From Pseudomonadota bacterium (GTDB lineage Bacteria; Desulfobacterota; Desulfobulbia; Desulfobulbales; Desulfurivibrionaceae): a stretch of DNA of 36,577 nt. Positions 15,482-34,311 of the stretch are shown in pieces. The stretch covers positions 1 through 36,577 of the forward strand of contig JAHJTI010000158.1 in the NCBI GenBank assembly GCA_018829945.1, given 5' to 3'. Below the pieces are notes generated by a model that did no database searches, was not told where the DNA came from, and was given only the letters and a program-made list of their open reading frames with translations. The position numbers were made by a program, and so were the translations under genes. How positions within the stretch are numbered: position 1 is the first letter of the stretch; the number at the start of each line of letters is the position of its first letter.

Positions 15482-15709
15482 TTACAGTCTCGCCGGAACA
15501 CGGACCAGAGACACCTCGCCAGGAATGACGCGCTCCAGATCCCCGTCTTCCGTCCGCAAAATCTTTGGCGTCCCGAAGGTCTTCTTGATGGAAACCTTGC
15601 AGGCCGGGCACTGAAAAACATCTTTCGGCATGATCATTCCGGAGATGGTCTCAAGCCACATCTCGAAGAGGTTTTCCGCTCCGCATTCTCCGCAGGTTAT
15701 TGTGCACAT
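15482..15709 (-). CDS. Zinc-ribbon small protein
   Basis: MCTITCGECGAENLFEMWLETISGMIMPKDVFQCPACKVSIKK; two CxxC pairs. Confidence 0.6.
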   Translation of the reverse strand: MCTITCGECGAENLFEMWLETISGMIMPKDVFQCPACKVSIKKTFGTPKILRTEDGDLERVIPGEVSLVRVPARL

Positions 15710-16632
15710 TCGCTTTCTCCTGGGAATTCCATGTGCTCCTTTCCGTCCAACAGACGACCGGCTGCTTTCTTTCCGACGCGGTATGATCTGGTCCCATCTC
15801 CCCAGACGTGATACATGGCGTTTCTGCTGGACAGTGCTGTAAAGGGGCTGGATGTAAAATCTGCTTGCGATTGGTGGCTCCATTCCCCCCATTGCTTGAA
15901 GAAAAAAGGTATTTTTGCGTCGGTGCATTGGTAACGCAGAAAGTTTACCCACTCAGGAGACAGCGCCCTGGCTTCATGCCCTGATTCACCACCGCAGATG
16001 ACCAGGTCAACACAAGGAACAGGTCTAAACCGAGAGTGTGCCGCCGCTTCCCGGTTGCAGTGGCGCAGGATGTTTACCGGTCCAAGCATCGGCTCTATGG
16101 AAATAAACTTGTGAGCAACCTGCAGGCCGCACAGGATAGGAATGCTCCTGTCTGCGCTGGCCTGATCCCAAACCGTTACCCCGAACCAGAAGCAATCTTG
16201 AAGCGTCTCAACGGAGTAGGTGGACTCGCTGTTCATCCATTGAAAAAACTCCGCCATCCGCTCTGGCCGCTTGGTAAGGATCATGTAGCGGTGATGTGGA
16301 GCCATTGCCGCATAGGTGAGAACGGCCTGGATGTACCCAAACGGAACCAAAGGGTGGAACAGGTCGCTGCGTTCGGTCACGAACCAGACGGTTGGCTTTT
16401 TGATTGTACTCGGCAGCTTGAGCTGATCTCTGCATATCATCACCATGCCATTCCATTTTCCTTCCTGGTTGGTCAGTCCGCGAAGGGAAGGGAGCGAATC
16501 TTTAAACCTGTGAGCATATTTGGCGGCAAAGCAGTTATCGCAGGCAGGCGAGCAGGGCGTGCAACCTTCCAGCACAGGCCAGTTGCGATCCCACCACAAC
16601 CCTTTTGCAATGCGTTTTTCAGATGGCTTCAT
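15697..16632 (-). CDS. DUF5131 / phage Gp37-Gp68 family protein
   Basis: WDRNWPVLEGCTPCSPACDNCFAAKYAHRFK..., VWFVTERSDLFHPLVPFGYIQAV, ILTKRPERMAEF, VICGGESGHEARALSPEWV; characteristic of this family. Confidence 0.88.
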   Translation of the reverse strand: MKPSEKRIAKGLWWDRNWPVLEGCTPCSPACDNCFAAKYAHRFKDSLPSLRGLTNQEGKWNGMVMICRDQLKLPSTIKKPTVWFVTERSDLFHPLVPFGYIQAVLTYAAMAPHHRYMILTKRPERMAEFFQWMNSESTYSVETLQDCFWFGVTVWDQASADRSIPILCGLQVAHKFISIEPMLGPVNILRHCNREAAAHSRFRPVPCVDLVICGGESGHEARALSPEWVNFLRYQCTDAKIPFFFKQWGEWSHQSQADFTSSPFTALSSRNAMYHVWGDGTRSYRVGKKAAGRLLDGKEHMEFPGESECAQ

Positions 16633-18260: not shown

Positions 18261-19010
18261 TCATTCATCCGGTGGCATGTTCTCGGCAAGCTCAACCTCG
18301 ATATCCATTGCCGAGGCATACTGATTGAACCAGTCATCCCTTGCTGTCAACAGCAGCTCGATCAGCATGCTCGCCTTGGCCGGATCGCCGCCGACCACGG
18401 AAATAAATTCCTGCACCCGGCTGTAAACCATGTGGTTGTAACCGGCATCCAGGGCAACGGCGCGGCCGGCCAGCTCCTGCTCGACTTCCGCCCGGAGCAG
18501 GTACTTGCCGCGCTCGACATCGAACTTGAAGTTTTCCCGCTTCTGCTGGACCCTGATCCGCTCGATCTCTTCTTCGAGCTTGATCCGCTGCAGGTCGTCC
18601 TGGTCTTCCCTGTCCTTCTTGCCGGTTTCCGCACGAGGTACCCAATCCTTGGCATACTTGAGCACGGCGCGCCGGGTATAAAGCCCCTGGGCATTTCTGA
18701 CCAGCTTTCCCTGCTTGACGTGCTGATAAAACTGAGTCTTCTCCAGATTCCAGCCGTTGTCCTGCAGGTAACGCAGAACAGCGGCACCGTTCTTGGTGTC
18801 CTGGAACTGCGCTTCCGGTTCCTGATCGGCCGCTTTTTCCTTGGCCAGGTGTTTCTCGATCATGTTGGTTGCCCGTTCCATGGCCACCAAATTGGTCGCG
18901 GAGGGATCCTGCAAGGCCCGTTGCTTGGCCTCCTCCTTGGCGGATATCAGGACCGACAAATCCGTTTTTCCGGACTCCGAAAGGATGCTATCCAGTTCGT
19001 TGCGATCCAT
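18261..19010 (-). CDS. Probable terminase small subunit-like / DNA-packaging protein
   Basis: MDRNELDSILSESGKTDLSVLISAKEEAKQRAL...; HTH-like NGAAVLRYLQDNGWNLEKTQFYQHVKQGKLV; coiled-coil; position upstream of TerL. Confidence 0.5.
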   Translation of the reverse strand: MDRNELDSILSESGKTDLSVLISAKEEAKQRALQDPSATNLVAMERATNMIEKHLAKEKAADQEPEAQFQDTKNGAAVLRYLQDNGWNLEKTQFYQHVKQGKLVRNAQGLYTRRAVLKYAKDWVPRAETGKKDREDQDDLQRIKLEEEIERIRVQQKRENFKFDVERGKYLLRAEVEQELAGRAVALDAGYNHMVYSRVQEFISVVGGDPAKASMLIELLLTARDDWFNQYASAMDIEVELAENMPPDE

Positions 19011-19357
19011 TACCTGCCAAGCTCCCACTCCGGCAATTCGATGCCTAGAACCTCTCTCACGTGCGCCGCCAGCTCCCCGCGATGGCATTCATCTCGGTTT
19101 TTTTCGTAGCAGCAAAATATGGGGTTCGGAACCTTCCCCTCGATATAGGCAAGCACTTCCGCCAGCCTGTCCGGAGTCGGGAAGCGGTCCCGCAAATCCC
19201 GCCTGTATTGCTCCCGCCAGTCTTCCGCCCAGGGATTAGACGGGGCAAGCTCTACAACCCACAGCCCTCCCTTGCTGAAAAACCGCGGACGCTTGAGAGA
19301 TATGCACACCTTTCGTTCCGCCGGCGCCTTGCTTGCAAAATAGGATGTCTGGATCAT
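19010..19357 (-). CDS. DUF488-family protein
   Basis: MIQTSYFASKAPAERKVCISLKRPRFF...WAEDWREQYRRDL...PIFCCYEKNRDECHRGELAAHV (typical C-YEK--CHR motif). Confidence 0.8.
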   Translation of the reverse strand: MIQTSYFASKAPAERKVCISLKRPRFFSKGGLWVVELAPSNPWAEDWREQYRRDLRDRFPTPDRLAEVLAYIEGKVPNPIFCCYEKNRDECHRGELAAHVREVLGIELPEWELGR

Positions 19358-19631: not shown

Positions 19632-21326
19632 TCATGCTCCTAGAATCTCCGAGGGCACCCGGCCAACCAGATTGACGCCGGACTCCAGGAAGACCCTTTT
19701 CAGCTCTCCTTTCTTACATTTTCCGTAGGCTCCTTCCGGCTTGCCGATTGTTTCAGTGAGGAATTTCACCGCCTGTTCCTCTGCGAAGATCCCCAGGGAC
19801 TCGCCCATGGCCATCATTTCAGCTACGGTTTTCTTGTCGAGATACTCTTCGGTGATCGCCCACTCCTGGGCCATGTCGATGCCAAGATGCTCCGCCGCCC
19901 GCCAACGTCCGGCACAGGTCACCTTGTCTTTTTGCAGAAAGGTTTCCAGGGCGGCGGCCACCAGCTCTTCCTCAAGCTCCTGGCCGCTCATGGTGGCCAG
20001 CTTGACCATGATCTCTTCGTCCGAAAGCCTGGTCCAGGTATCAATCTCCTTTTCCCCTGCCATTTTGTGGCGTTGAACAAACCACGGCTGCAGATCCCGG
20101 TTGGAAACGAGCTGGGCAAAGAGGATCAGCCGCCGACGGCTCGCTGAATCGACCCCACCGGCCTGTATTTTGGCGGGCAAGGCCTCCCGGAAGAAAAGAT
20201 CGCGGAAGTGCTCTCCGTGCCATGCCACCCTGGGGCCAGCCGCCTTGGCCGCTGCAGTCTTTTCCACGCTCTTGCCTTCACTCCAGGCTTCGGTGGTGGT
20301 TTTCTTGAAACAGGCCTTGTCGCCCATGCAGACCTTGGGCCGGTCCACCTTGCCGGTGAGCGACACCAGGGAAAAGAAGGACTCGCAGGATTTGCATGGT
20401 TTCGGCGTCTTCTGCCAGCTGCCGATCTCCTCGTAATCATTCCACTGAAAATCCGATGAAAAACGGAAGCCGTTGGTGGGCAGTTTGTGCTTTGCCCGGA
20501 AATCATTCCAGTTGTCCTTGAGCCAGTTGTTCTGTTTCTGCTTGAAGCATTTCGGATTGTTGCACTGAATGGCATCAGAGGCGGAGCCGAACAGGCTCTT
20601 CTGGACATCCGAGTTCTGGAAGCAGGTGGCGCACCCGGCTTTGTCGACATCGAAAAAAGCCGACTTCAACTCCGGAGATTCACTGTCGATCTTGCGGGCC
20701 AGATCCCGCACCGCCACATGCCGGAACCTGGATTGTTCTTCCATCCATTCAAACAGTATTTTTACCTGCTTTTTGTCACCAACCCGGGTGAGTTGTTCCA
20801 GGTGGCCATATTTCAGGCTGCCCTGTGCCCAGGCCTCAAGAACCTCTTTCGGAAGCTCCAGTATCTTGACGCGGCGGCGGATATAGGCAGGGTTGATACC
20901 GATCCTCTCGGCCAGAATCGGGACCGCTTCGTCGCCCATCCGGTCGATATATAATTTGAAGCTGTTTGCCTCCTCCAGCTCTGTGATGTCGTTGCGCTGG
21001 AGGTTCTCGATGGTCATAATCTCAAAGGCTTCGTTGTCGTCCAGATCGCGCACCATGGCCGGGATGGCATGCTTGGACAGACCCCCGTTTTCCTTGGCAA
21101 GGTCGCAACTGACACGCCAACGGCGCTCTCCGAAGACTATCTCGTACTTCTTGTCCGGGAGCTGTCGGACCATAATGGGCTGGAGCACTCCTTTTTCACG
21201 GACCGAGGCAAGCAGGTCCTCATAAGCCTTTCCGGTAAAGTTCTTTCTTGGGTTCAGTGGGTTGGCAATGATCTTGTTCAGCTTGATCTGTTCGATTGTC
21301 TGTTGTTGCGCGGTGTTGGTGGTCAT
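19632..21326 (-). CDS. ParB/RepB/Spo0J-family protein with Cys-rich C-terminal region
   Basis: 564 aa; LNKIIANPLNPRKNF...YEIVFGERRWRVSCDLAKENG...NLQRNDITELEEANSF; Cys pairs CATCFQ, CNNPKC, CKSC, CMGDKAC. Confidence 0.9.
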   Translation of the reverse strand: MTTNTAQQQTIEQIKLNKIIANPLNPRKNFTGKAYEDLLASVREKGVLQPIMVRQLPDKKYEIVFGERRWRVSCDLAKENGGLSKHAIPAMVRDLDDNEAFEIMTIENLQRNDITELEEANSFKLYIDRMGDEAVPILAERIGINPAYIRRRVKILELPKEVLEAWAQGSLKYGHLEQLTRVGDKKQVKILFEWMEEQSRFRHVAVRDLARKIDSESPELKSAFFDVDKAGCATCFQNSDVQKSLFGSASDAIQCNNPKCFKQKQNNWLKDNWNDFRAKHKLPTNGFRFSSDFQWNDYEEIGSWQKTPKPCKSCESFFSLVSLTGKVDRPKVCMGDKACFKKTTTEAWSEGKSVEKTAAAKAAGPRVAWHGEHFRDLFFREALPAKIQAGGVDSASRRRLILFAQLVSNRDLQPWFVQRHKMAGEKEIDTWTRLSDEEIMVKLATMSGQELEEELVAAALETFLQKDKVTCAGRWRAAEHLGIDMAQEWAITEEYLDKKTVAEMMAMGESLGIFAEEQAVKFLTETIGKPEGAYGKCKKGELKRVFLESGVNLVGRVPSEILGA

Positions 21327-21645: not shown

Positions 21646-22050
21646 TCAAATTCCCTGCTGATAACGGATATTCTCCATCCACATGCCGGTAAATGCCGCA
21701 ATATCCCGCTGCTGCCGAGGGTTGAAACGGACAGCCTTGCCCTCATCATCGCAGGTGACCGCTTTACGACAGACCCCGATGTAATCCTGGATAATGCTCT
21801 CCGGGTAATAGTTGCCTTGCTCGTCGCGGATAAAGACAATTTCCGGATCCCGCATCAGGTCGCCGTTCTGCTCTCCGTAATGTGCGACGCTGATCAGCTC
21901 GCAACTCTGCTTTCCGACGACGATGGACCCGACCCTTTCGACAACAACCGGCATAAACGTGTCGTTGTTGCTTAGTTTGAGGTAGTTTTCCGTCATCATG
22001 GACCGCATTTTGTCGAGTACCTTTGTTGCTTTTTTGTTCACTTTTTTCAT
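21646..22050 (-). CDS. DUF6908-like protein
   Basis: NYLKLSNNDTFMPVVVERVGSIVVGKQSCELISVAHYGEQNGDLMRDPEIVFIRDEQGNYYPESIIQDYIGV. Confidence 0.65.
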   Translation of the reverse strand: MKKVNKKATKVLDKMRSMMTENYLKLSNNDTFMPVVVERVGSIVVGKQSCELISVAHYGEQNGDLMRDPEIVFIRDEQGNYYPESIIQDYIGVCRKAVTCDDEGKAVRFNPRQQRDIAAFTGMWMENIRYQQGI

Positions 22051-22136: not shown

Positions 22137-23477
22137 TTATTTCCTCGTTTTTTTTGTCCATATTTCAAGCACTTGCGCGATATTGTGCGCCCCGGCCTCT
22201 GCACAGTAGTTGAGCAGGAAACCGCCCTCCGCCTCTTTGCGTTTATGGAGCGTAAAGATGCCGCGATACTTCATGCTCACCGGGTGCTTGGCAAAGGCGC
22301 TGGTGGTGATCCAGCCAAAGTCCTCTATGTAACGCAGGTCAAGGATCTCCTTGATCTCTTTGGAGAGCAGACAGAGCAACACCAGTTTTGCCAGCCGCTT
22401 TTCAACGCTGGGCACTGCCAGGTCGGACATCAGGTAGATCATGGGCCTGTCATCCGGCAGCTTCCACTGGTGCGAGGACGGGCAGAAATCCGCCTTGCCG
22501 ATTACGTGGCCGTCGAGCAGGAAGGCCAGGGAGACGCCGACGCCGCCGGTGAAATAGTCGATCCGCGAAGAGAGGAACAACTCATTCATTCGGATAGATT
22601 GACCAAAGGTGATTTTTGCAAAGGAGAGCTGTTCTTTTCCGGTCACTTCCCGGTCGGCAGGCCAGATAGGGCCGATGGCTTCACTTTTGACTACTTTGCG
22701 ACCCACGATCCGGCGGCGATCGCTTTTAGCGATGATGTGGGAAAAACTGTTCCGGCCGCGCGGCAGAATGGCGGACGGCTGGCCAAGGATTGCATGCACA
22801 TCCGGGAGGTCTTTTTCCAGGACCACAAAATATGAGGTAAAGCGGGAAATTTCCTCGTACAGTTCCATGCTTTTGTCGGTCATTTCCTTGTAGGCAGGTT
22901 GTTCCCAGGCGATTGAGGCGCGCAACAGCTTTTCCAGGCGCTCATAGCCTGCCCGGTAAGTCGGGGGGAAAGCGAACACCGTATGCTCCGAGGATTTCTC
23001 GGCCAGAAGCTCAAAGCCGTCTTTGGCCTGGTAGTCGATGGGGCCTATATGCTTCTTGTATATCTGTAGCTTCTCTCTGGTGGTGGCGAGCAGGGTTTCC
23101 CATTCCAGCCGATACTGGCGCATGACCTTTTCTTGATATGGGTTCTTTATCTGCCACACTTCCCGCAGATCGTAGAGCAGGGCGATGGAGGCCACGACAT
23201 CCACGGGCGAGTCGAGACGGAGCATCCCTTGCAACTGTTCCGGGCACTCCGGGTTTTCGCTGACATCAAAAGGGCTGTCCGCCAGAAATGCGCCAAGAGC
23301 CGAGGTGTAAAGGGAAACATCACAAGCCGTTATGGGCCCGGTATATCCTCCGGAACGCAGGGCCGAAGCAACGGTGAAGTTTCCGGCGCCGATCAGCAGC
23401 ACCGGGTGCTCAATTTCTTTTGCGTATTGCGCCAGGGTCTGCCGGACAGAGGCGGCGACTGCTCCGATAAATGACAT
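22137..23477 (-). CDS. Putative antirestriction adenine methyltransferase-like N-domain fused to Mom-like acyltransferase C-domain
   Basis: Start MSFIGAVAASV at 23477, immediately downstream of the ParB-like stop; Rossmann SAM-like VLLIGAGNFTVASALRSGGYTGPITACDVS, FPPTY motif; C-terminal YLMSDLAVPSVEKRLAKLVLLCLLSKEIKEILDLRYIEDFGWITTSAFAKHPVSMKYRGIF. Confidence 0.6.
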   Translation of the reverse strand: MSFIGAVAASVRQTLAQYAKEIEHPVLLIGAGNFTVASALRSGGYTGPITACDVSLYTSALGAFLADSPFDVSENPECPEQLQGMLRLDSPVDVVASIALLYDLREVWQIKNPYQEKVMRQYRLEWETLLATTREKLQIYKKHIGPIDYQAKDGFELLAEKSSEHTVFAFPPTYRAGYERLEKLLRASIAWEQPAYKEMTDKSMELYEEISRFTSYFVVLEKDLPDVHAILGQPSAILPRGRNSFSHIIAKSDRRRIVGRKVVKSEAIGPIWPADREVTGKEQLSFAKITFGQSIRMNELFLSSRIDYFTGGVGVSLAFLLDGHVIGKADFCPSSHQWKLPDDRPMIYLMSDLAVPSVEKRLAKLVLLCLLSKEIKEILDLRYIEDFGWITTSAFAKHPVSMKYRGIFTLHKRKEAEGGFLLNYCAEAGAHNIAQVLEIWTKKTRK

Positions 23478-23478
23478 C

Positions 23479-24219
23479 TCAGACCACCTCTTCCAGCTTT
23501 TCCAGCAGGCGCAGCATGGCCAGACTGCCGTTCTTGATATTGTCCTTCTTCTTGACCGCGAGCAGTTTTTTGAAAAAGGCGTCAAACTGATCGGCCTGGG
23601 CAAGATAGACGTTATCTGAGGGGATCCGCCCGAGTTCGTCCATAATCTCTGCGACAGCCCCGAATTCCATTTCGGTGAAGGCGAAAGTCACCTGCCTGGT
23701 GCGCGGCTGCGGGGTGCTGAAATTAAGCAGCTTTACATTCTGCAGCTCACCGATTGTTTCGCTGGAAAGCCCGGCGTAGCATTTTGCTTTGATGTCATCG
23801 ATGCGGGCCCAGAGTCCGGCAAGAATCTGCTGGTCATCTTCACCGACCAGGGAGTTATGGGAGAGCTGGATAGAAATTTTTTGGCTCAATTCTATTGCTT
23901 CGATGATCACGATTACCATGATCCATTGGATTCCGGCCTCGACAGAGGCTTTTACCCTGTGATTTCCGGAGAGCACTTCCAGCCGGTTGCTGTCATCCAT
24001 CGGATAACAGAGAGGGACACTGGAAAGCCGCTGATCCTGCCGGAGGTTGGCCACCAGCTGCTTGAAGGTTTCCTTTTTGAAATAACGGGCATTTTCTTTG
24101 AGAATAACCAGGGATGCCGGATCAACAATGCGGAGTTCTGCGGAATCTCCAAAGAGAAGGCGGCTGGTTTCCTTGAGGGCTTCGTTTTGACGCGCAATAT
24201 CTTCTGGCTGCATGATCAT
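23479..24219 (-). CDS. ParB/Sulfiredoxin-fold domain protein
   Basis: LRIVDPASLVILKENARYFKKETFKQLVANLRQDQRLSSVPLCYPMDDSNRLEVLSGNHRVKASVEAG; ATGA overlap with primase. Confidence 0.8.
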   Translation of the reverse strand: MIMQPEDIARQNEALKETSRLLFGDSAELRIVDPASLVILKENARYFKKETFKQLVANLRQDQRLSSVPLCYPMDDSNRLEVLSGNHRVKASVEAGIQWIMVIVIIEAIELSQKISIQLSHNSLVGEDDQQILAGLWARIDDIKAKCYAGLSSETIGELQNVKLLNFSTPQPRTRQVTFAFTEMEFGAVAEIMDELGRIPSDNVYLAQADQFDAFFKKLLAVKKKDNIKNGSLAMLRLLEKLEEVV

Positions 24220-25691
24220 CCTCCCTGGATAAGATTACCGGCATGAATCTCTTTGGCCGGGTGGTAATGGATTGCCTTGCCGACCGCTTCCGACTTGAAC
24301 ACCAGATCCGATATTCTGGCAGCGGCGGCAAGGTTTGCAGAGCGCCAGGCCGGTGTCCACTTGATACGCACTTCGCAGGGGTCCTGGCTCTTGATCACCC
24401 GAACCGGAGTATTTGCCAGCAACCCGGCGAGCTCGGCAAGATCATCACCGGACGCTGGGGCCGCAACCACCGTTTCCTTTTTTTCAACTTCATCCGAGGC
24501 CGTGATCGCTTCCACCGCAACCGCCTCAACATCCGCCGCCCCCTCCACCAAACCAGAAGAAAGAGACTGTCCGGGACGGTCCGGAGTGCCGGAACCGATC
24601 TGGAAAACCGGAGGCAGGCCGGCCTTGATCCAGGCGCGGAGATCCACCCCGGCCTTGAATGCCTCGCCCGGGTCTTTGCCCACCGGCACCGGCCAGCGCA
24701 GATGCCGGTCGAAGGTGGCGGACCATTTTGCAAGGGCCCGCTGCAGGGCCGGGGTTTTCGGGTCGTCCGCATCGAGGGCATCGATGATGGCCAGGGATCC
24801 GAAGAGGAGCGCGTAGGCCTCGGCGTCCAGGTTTCCCTCAAGTGTTTCGATGGACACGGCGCCAACCAGATCCGCAGCGGCCGCGAAGATGGCCACGGCG
24901 TCGAGCTCCGCCTCGACCACGGCGAAGGCCCGGGCAGACTCTCCCAGGATCATGGTGGTTCCGGCTGAACCTGGTATCCGGTAGTATTTGAGGTTTTCAC
25001 AGTTCTTTGCCCGCTCGTAATCAGGGCGGCGAATTCGGATCCGGTGAAGTACGCCGCCGCGGTAAACCGGGATGACCAGGCCGGAAGGCAGCCAGAGACG
25101 CTTAGCCTTGCCGGTTTGTCCGTGCAGCTCGGTGGGCAGGCCCCAACTCTCCCTGGCCCGGTAAGTGTCCGTCGGATTCCATCCGAGCCTGCAGTCTATG
25201 GCAGCTTCCTGGGTGATGCCCCTTGAAGCGAGATAGTCGAGCTGCTCCTGATTGGCCAGCAGCTGCTCGTGGCACCAGGACACGAACTTCTCGGCATGCT
25301 CGATCCACACCGGTGATGGTGAGGTGGTGGGGTGGATGGTGATCTTGCGAGACTGCTCCAGGACAGGCCTGGGTGCGGATGAACGCCCGGGGACCGAGGC
25401 CTTGGCCTGGGTCTTCGGCTCGATCCCGAGATAGGAGCATGCCTCGATGTAGCCAAGGCCCTGAAAATCGCGCAGCCACTGGATGGCGTCTCCGCCCCGA
25501 CCGCACTTGCGGCAACTGAAGGTGCCGACATTGCCCTGCAGCGGCCACACCCGCATCCGGTCGGTGTTTTCCTCAAGAGAAACGCAGTCCGGACCATTGC
25601 CTGGACATTTGCCCTGGTACTCTCCACCGTTTTTCCCGCCGGCGCGAAATCCTGAAAAGCCAGGAAAATTAAAGAATTGCATCATACTCAT
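24216..25691 (-). CDS. DNA primase (CHC2 zinc finger, TOPRIM-like)
   Basis: CPGNGPDCVSLEENTDRMRVWPLQGNVGTFSCRKCGRGGDAIQWLRDFQGLGYIEACSYLGI; AFAVVEAELDAVAIFAAAADLVGAVSIE; IIDALDADDPKTPALQRAL. Confidence 0.9.
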   Translation of the reverse strand: MSMMQFFNFPGFSGFRAGGKNGGEYQGKCPGNGPDCVSLEENTDRMRVWPLQGNVGTFSCRKCGRGGDAIQWLRDFQGLGYIEACSYLGIEPKTQAKASVPGRSSAPRPVLEQSRKITIHPTTSPSPVWIEHAEKFVSWCHEQLLANQEQLDYLASRGITQEAAIDCRLGWNPTDTYRARESWGLPTELHGQTGKAKRLWLPSGLVIPVYRGGVLHRIRIRRPDYERAKNCENLKYYRIPGSAGTTMILGESARAFAVVEAELDAVAIFAAAADLVGAVSIETLEGNLDAEAYALLFGSLAIIDALDADDPKTPALQRALAKWSATFDRHLRWPVPVGKDPGEAFKAGVDLRAWIKAGLPPVFQIGSGTPDRPGQSLSSGLVEGAADVEAVAVEAITASDEVEKKETVVAAPASGDDLAELAGLLANTPVRVIKSQDPCEVRIKWTPAWRSANLAAAARISDLVFKSEAVGKAIHYHPAKEIHAGNLIQGG

Positions 25692-33090: not shown

Positions 33091-34311
33091 ATGCCAGCAA
33101 ACATCAAAAAACAGGGAAGCAAATGGAGGGTACGCTGGAGGCTATACCTTCCAGATGATTCCTGGCTGGAGCGGTCACGCTTGACCGCCGATAAAGGGCG
33201 GGCCAAAGAGGTCAAGGCCATGGCTGATCTTATCGAGATCAAGACCAGACACCAGGAGAGCACCGCCGCGGATCTCGAGTACTGGCAACGCCATCGCCTG
33301 ATAAGCAGGCAGGATGCCGAGCTGCTTAATACATTCAAAGATGCCAGAAAGACATTGGCTCAAGCTGCCGAGGAATACAAACAATCAAACGATTGCGGAA
33401 AAGAAGAGATGGAGGCGAGGGCGGTGCGCATCGATCGCGTGGTGGCGATATTGGGTCCGGAAAGATCGGTCGGCGAGATCCGCCACTCTGATGGCGAGCG
33501 CATCAAGACTGTGTTGCGGGATGGCTGGAAGGACAACAAAGACGCAAAGGAAAAGAAATACAAGGCGGTAACCATCAACAAGCATCTGCAGGACGGCAAG
33601 CGCATGTTCACCCTGCAGATGGCCGAGGGTGTCATCGAGCACAATCCCTGGGGGGTGCTCAAGGGCGCGAAGATCCCTAAAGAGGAAGTGATAGACCATA
33701 CTGTTCTCAGCCATGATGATATTGTCAAGGTCCTGGCCGAGGCCGAGATCAGCGACAAACGCACGGATCCTGGAAACCCGGCCAGCATGGGAGGAAATCT
33801 CACTCTATTTCTGCTCATGTTTTTCGGCACCGGCCTGAGGCGCAAGGAAGCAATGGCCGCGAAGATGGAAAACATCGACTGGCAAAGTCGGAGCCTGCGA
33901 CTGATGGAAACCAAGAATGGCGAGGATAGGTCTGTCGGTCTCGGCGATCGGCTATACTTATTATTGCTGAACAGAAAAGGGGAAACCGGCTACATCCTGC
34001 CGCGATTTTATCTCAATTCGGTGAGCAGGGCAATCAGTCGACATTTCAAGCGGTGCGGATTCAAGATGCGCTTGCACGACACCAGGCACACATACACCAC
34101 AAGGCTGCTCGACCTCGGAGTGCTCCGGCACAATGCCATGGGACGAACCGGACACAAGGACTCCAGAATGCTGGATCACTACACCCACCCGATCTTTGGC
34201 GAGGTTTACGAGGACCAGTTTCCATTCATGCAGCAGGTCAAGGGGGATGAAGCAGAAGCTGCCCAGCAACCACCTAAAAATAAGAAAACTGTCTTGCGAG
34301 TGGTAAAATAG
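33091..34311 (+). CDS. int: Tyrosine recombinase / phage integrase
   Basis: 406 aa; GTGLRRKEAMAAKMENIDW, LHDTRHTYTTRLLDLG, MGRTGHKDSRMLDHYTH catalytic motifs; adjacent to tRNA fragment. Confidence 0.95.
   Translation: MPANIKKQGSKWRVRWRLYLPDDSWLERSRLTADKGRAKEVKAMADLIEIKTRHQESTAADLEYWQRHRLISRQDAELLNTFKDARKTLAQAAEEYKQSNDCGKEEMEARAVRIDRVVAILGPERSVGEIRHSDGERIKTVLRDGWKDNKDAKEKKYKAVTINKHLQDGKRMFTLQMAEGVIEHNPWGVLKGAKIPKEEVIDHTVLSHDDIVKVLAEAEISDKRTDPGNPASMGGNLTLFLLMFFGTGLRRKEAMAAKMENIDWQSRSLRLMETKNGEDRSVGLGDRLYLLLLNRKGETGYILPRFYLNSVSRAISRHFKRCGFKMRLHDTRHTYTTRLLDLGVLRHNAMGRTGHKDSRMLDHYTHPIFGEVYEDQFPFMQQVKGDEAEAAQQPPKNKKTVLRVVK

Follow-up and report, generated by a model that had tools for sequence, protein, structure and literature searches.

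Phage Mu Mom (PF25680), a protein of the GNAT fold, introduces an acyl-type modification at adenine N6, and E. coli Dam belongs to the N6-adenine methyltransferases. A third point of comparison is provided by the Dpd (7-deazaguanine) and Dnd (phosphorothioate) systems, in which a ParB-fold NTPase, DpdB or DndB, is the partner of a DNA-modifying enzyme (PMC12839542). Here, we describe a phage gene pair with features of all three: DG, a fusion of a Dam-like half and a GNAT half, and PB, its ParB-like partner. Both domains of DG are already in Pfam, as PF22555 and PF22559, and the protein adds a member to a computationally catalogued family (phrog_7858, a PHROGs entry without functional annotation). 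With this family it shares two full-length domains and a phrog_7405 partner, whereas it differs in gene arrangement, as PB precedes DG in the clade to which it belongs and a third gene, encoding a DUF488-like protein, is set off from DG by two genes.

DG resembles Mu Mom in being a phage gene product with a GNAT fold that matches the Mom structure, but it differs in its Dam-like fusion, its ParB-like and DUF488-like partners, and the absence of a PF25680 match or a significant profile alignment. It shares with Dam and the N6-adenine methyltransferases the fold and the conserved acidic residues and glycine of the SAM site, whereas the catalytic D/N of motif IV is replaced and a GNAT domain is attached. 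The modifying enzymes of Dpd and Dnd differ from DG, and neither a transglycosylase nor a cysteine desulfurase was seen among the recurrent neighbors of the module. Finally, amidoligase-type phage proteins of phrog_2443 have a C-terminal GNAT domain in common with DG, but the DG studied here has no amidoligase domain. The three-gene set has likely been described before; in a literature search of limited reach, neither the reciprocal split of the active sites nor the link to SAM synthetase nor the pairing numbers given below came up in earlier publications.

Genomic Setting and Gene Layout

The window, that is, the whole 36,577-nucleotide stretch of DNA analyzed, is one complete contig (G000:C177) of a Desulfurivibrionaceae genome totaling 347 contigs. 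Given that it carries an integrase gene (33091-34311) and, elsewhere, minus-strand head, tail and terminase-type genes, it represents a prophage or integrated phage fragment. An identical copy of DG is present in an IMG/VR contig, and the nearest relatives of the pair occur in Desulfosarcina, Desulfovibrio and a genome of the same order.

On the minus strand, the primase gene (24216-25691) is followed by PB (23479..24219; 246 aa) and DG (22137..23477; 446 aa). As the first-pass annotation of this DNA had described, the two genes overlap in an ATGA, which contains both the ATG of PB and the TGA of the primase gene. That annotation also put the PB stop directly before the ATG of a 447-aa protein; the adjacency holds, with one base between the PB TGA (23481-23479) and the DG ATG at 23477, but the length is 446 aa plus the stop. 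This start of DG is supported by the conservation of the N-terminal residues F3 and G5 across the family. Directly downstream of DG lies a gene for a DUF6908 protein (21646-22050, minus strand; E=1.1e-30), and then one for a canonical ParB-family protein separate from PB (19632-21326, minus strand; ParB_N E=2e-27, with HTH_ParB, PRTRC-ParB-like), which stands between DG and the DUF488-like gene (19010..19357, minus strand; 115 aa), 2.8 kb downstream of DG. Farther along the same strand, a phrog_2045 protein (15697-16632) also matches the PADLOC candidate-defense models PDC-M30B and PDC-M41B, with E about 1e-50. PADLOC assigned the DG-PB pair itself to no defense system.

Pairing and Distribution

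PB and DG were both present in all 125 non-redundant loci, which span many phyla, and were at most 100 bp apart in 118 of them, so that the association between these two genes, proposed from the window alone, proved to be real and obligate. Viral contigs retrieved by either DG or PB contained both genes, save at contig ends. A separate search of bacterial genomes, for which A1 served as the query, A3 being too divergent for this purpose, again recovered both genes except at one contig end and in one weak match (L259). DG precedes PB in most loci, while the window's order, PB then DG, characterizes one clade. Hosts of the module include actinomycetes, Bacillota, Bacteroidota, planctomycetes, Desulfobacterota and others. 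Among named phages, the pair is found in Gordonia phages Clawz, Soos, Sting and Jollymon, Mycobacterium phages Megabear, Jeon, Taptic, Cepens, Argie and GodPhather, Faecalibacterium phage FP_Brigit, and Microbacterium phage ValentiniPuff (aligned by hand from its annotation). Clustering of neighboring genes placed terminase and portal genes recurrently downstream of the pair.

Domains and Fold of DG

DG residues 3-264 matched PF22555 (DAM-like-phage1, phage DNA adenine methylase-like; 206.8 bits against a cut-off of 27, E=4.9e-61) and residues 282-444 matched PF22559 (GNAT-phage-like; 136.4 bits against a cut-off of 27, E=1e-39). The Dam-like half, of SAM-methyltransferase fold, thus spans DG residues 1-264 (22686..23477, minus strand) and the GNAT half residues 282-444 (22146..22634, minus strand). 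Together with the PHROGs assignments of DG (phrog_7858, E=5e-64) and PB (phrog_7405, E=3e-52), these matches are well beyond chance. The motifs quoted in the first-pass annotation, LLIGAGNF, FPPTY and SMKYRGIF, are all found in DG.

An AlphaFold2 model of DG built from 89 homologs reached a pLDDT of 93.4. When both halves were compared with solved structures by Foldseek, E. coli Dam ranked first for the N-terminal half (4rtn, E=7.9e-6), in agreement with the earlier suggestion of a SAM-binding-type fold, while the C-terminal half matched Naa60 and, with E=1.2e-4, phage Mu Mom (8bv8), along with further GNATs whose scores were comparable. Superpositions of the two-domain model gave modest TM-scores. 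The modeled fold class of DG is secure, and by Foldseek score several other GNATs are at least as close to the GNAT half as Mom is. The initial proposal of a Mom-type GNAT half therefore stands for the fold, Mu Mom being one of the best GNAT structure matches, but not for membership of the Mom family: the window DG had no listed match to the Mom profile PF25680 at E<=1, a profile that Mu Mom itself matches at 2.4e-75. Mom of Salmonella phage FSL SP-031 was also among the matches of the DG model in a viral structure library.

Comparison of sequence profiles between the GNAT half and close Mom homologs gave no significant alignment, and the counterpart of Mom Ser124, whose S124A variant is named inactive in the title of 8bv8, falls near DG residues 360-361 in a weak, non-significant hhalign alignment. 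Similarly, the DG family profile showed no significant sequence link to one Dam sequence, and phmmer retrieved no match to DG among PDB sequences. The link of DG to Dam and Mom is visible by fold comparison only, not by sequence.

Active-Site Residues and Two Subfamilies

By position, residues G32, D53 and D153 correspond to SAM motifs I, II and III, and each is kept in 100-101 of the 101 DG sequences compared; G32 lies in motif I, LLIGAGNF (DG residues 27-34; 23376..23399, minus strand), and is invariant in the family. Judging from this conservation, the Dam-like half very probably binds SAM, which implies that it does more than bind DNA.

The PP of motif IV is conserved across the family, but the window DG has no match to the canonical [DNS]PP[YFW] and instead carries FPPTY (DG residues 170-174; 22956..22970, minus strand), with F at the catalytic D/N/S position, as the first-pass annotation had recognized in calling the motif degenerate. 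The first residue of the motif is other than Asn in 105 of the 125 sequences, including the window (Phe in 85, Ser in three, and Tyr, Ala or others in the rest). The remaining 20 have Asn (NPPTY) and form one clade, in which Faecalibacterium phage FP_Brigit and its relatives, most of them from Bacillota, are joined by Microbacterium phage ValentiniPuff. Loci of this clade include L005, L082, L239, L242-L244 and L246-L250, with their relatives.

In the GNAT half, the SMKYRG signature (DG residues 401-406; 22260..22277, minus strand) is nearly invariant. D352 and Y404 are lost or replaced in 20 of 20 Asn sequences, which as a single clade stand for one evolutionary event and not twenty, and are present in all 105 others. 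This reciprocal loss of residues fits two functional modes, one Dam-type and one GNAT-led, and the window DG is, judged by its residues, of the GNAT-led type.

The ParB-Like Partner

By sequence, PB matched phrog_7405, with a weak match to ParB_N. Its model (pLDDT 89.5) had ParB, Noc and KorB as top structure matches, indicating a ParB N-domain fold. Within box II, which binds phosphate, R88 and G85 are each conserved in 98 of 98 sequences, and in other ParB-fold proteins nucleotide binding is lost when the box II Arg is mutated (PMC12704722). PB does not have the canonical box III ENxxR, in place of which it carries HN[AS][IL]xG(E/Q)DD. ParB-methyltransferase, ParB-acetyltransferase and ParB-DUF488-HTH fusions bind ATP, GTP and CTP (PMC12704722).

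A Recurrent DUF488-Like Gene and Other Linked Genes

A third partner, which was not part of the first-pass annotation, emerged from neighbor clustering as a small DUF488-like gene recurring near DG. Of 91 loci flanked by 3 kb or more on each side, 83 had this gene, 74 of them within 2 kb; given that the DUF488-like model was trained on 31 of the counted loci, the cleaner test is the set of bacterial genomes, in which 50 of 59 loci had it. Among all phage records, 14 of 50,697 matched one DUF488-like protein, and five of these 14 also carried DG (Fisher p about 2e-15 for the association, a value that ignores shared ancestry). In Desulfosarcina (L196), the DUF488-like gene directly follows DG. 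The window protein scored 16.4 and 18.8 bits against Pfam DUF488 and DUF488-N3a (weak matches to PF22751/PF04343), under the cut-offs, which several relatives pass, and it shares the C-x-E...CHR cysteine motif (C83, E85 and C91-H92-R93) found in 31 of 31 DUF488-like sequences.

Seven of the 125 loci, five among the 20 Asn-type and two among the 105 others, have a SAM-synthetase gene close to the module. In Gleimia europaea (L226:6352-10266), SAM synthetase, DUF488, DG and PB genes form one run in which genes overlap or nearly touch. One viral contig (L161:5998-8031) encodes an Amidoligase_2-Dam-like-GNAT fusion adjoining PB, with a DUF488-like gene in the locus; by sequence, its Dam-like half is devoid of the SAM motifs and its SMKYRG signature is intact. 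The best match of DG among viral structures was likewise an 'amidoligase enzyme' (A0A8S5SJK3, BFVD), aligned to the whole of DG over 454 columns (E=7.6e-25). We rejected an amidoligase as a general fourth component, the fusion occurring in this one locus only and in that database entry. A Pfam scan of 82 neighbor proteins revealed no further recurrent enzyme. At L046:7618-7998, an HNH endonuclease gene is located immediately upstream of DG.

Discussion

The reading that we favor, and consider somewhat probable, is that DG, PB and the DUF488-like protein form a three-gene phage DNA-modification module in which, for the window subfamily, acyl transfer is led by the GNAT half, with PB as loader and the DUF488-like protein as accessory. 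The Dam-like half would hold DNA and SAM but, in the window subfamily, would be without the residue that activates the adenine or cytosine amino group. Given that this motif IV residue is lost there, the GNAT half would be the likelier catalytic center: the Dam-like half would hold a DNA base, onto which the GNAT half would move an acyl-type group. PB could serve to place DG on DNA, as a clamp or a licensing factor under the control of NTP, and the DUF488-like cysteine enzyme could perform an accessory step on a nucleotide or DNA end. The purpose may be to mark phage DNA, or protect it, possibly from restriction, ahead of packaging. The Dam fold, the ParB-fold partner and the neighborhood of packaging genes support DNA as the target; GNATs modify proteins and small molecules too.

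A bifunctional hypermodification scheme is possible, if doubtful. SAM would be kept either as a structural cofactor or to serve a reaction that is not amino-methylation, the GNAT half would add an acyl or aminoacyl group, the ParB-like protein would be an NTP-driven loader, and the DUF488-like protein would serve as a finishing enzyme. The amidoligase-fused version of DG hints at an amino-acid-type adduct.

We regard it as unlikely that the module processes or protects DNA ends at packaging rather than internal bases, with the DUF488-like protein as the key enzyme. Burroughs and Aravind are said to have tied a DUF488 rhodanese-phosphatase clade to nucleic-acid modification in 2023 and to have proposed DNA-end processing for it, and the terminase genes directly downstream and the strong co-occurrence of the DUF488-like gene are consistent with such a role. 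However, this gene is absent in eight of the 91 well-flanked loci while DG and PB are always together, and Dam and Mom both act on internal bases.

It seems improbable that DG is just a Dam-type N6-adenine DNA methyltransferase to which the GNAT domain is an accessory. Dam as the top structure match, the invariant SAM-motif residues, the SAM-synthetase genes near some loci and the canonical NPPTY in one clade of 20 would all suit such an enzyme, but the motif IV Asn is absent from the window and 104 other sequences of the 125, and the GNAT residues are highly conserved in precisely these non-Asn sequences. Just as improbable, in our estimate, is acylation by the GNAT half of a host or phage protein, such as terminase or RNA polymerase, with the Dam-like half as a scaffold. 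While protein acetylation by phage GNATs is known or predicted (PMC7824862; PMC5512222), the fusion to a Dam-like half with intact SAM-binding residues and the obligate ParB-fold partner point to DNA. Lastly, we rejected the very remote alternative that PB is a partition or replication factor paired incidentally with DG, which its ParB N-domain fold and the adjacent primase gene might suggest, because the pairing is obligate, holding in every locus, in either of two gene orders and over many phyla; the prophage also has its separate canonical ParB.

Under the favored reading of a DNA-modification module, a widespread phage gene set probably writes a DNA modification. Given that Mycobacterium smegmatis and Gordonia phages in culture carry the module, a direct search for its product is possible. 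Owing to the reciprocal residue loss in the two halves of DG, mutation can clearly test which of them carries out the chemistry, and PB, as an obligate partner, provides a test case for ParB-fold switches outside chromosome segregation.
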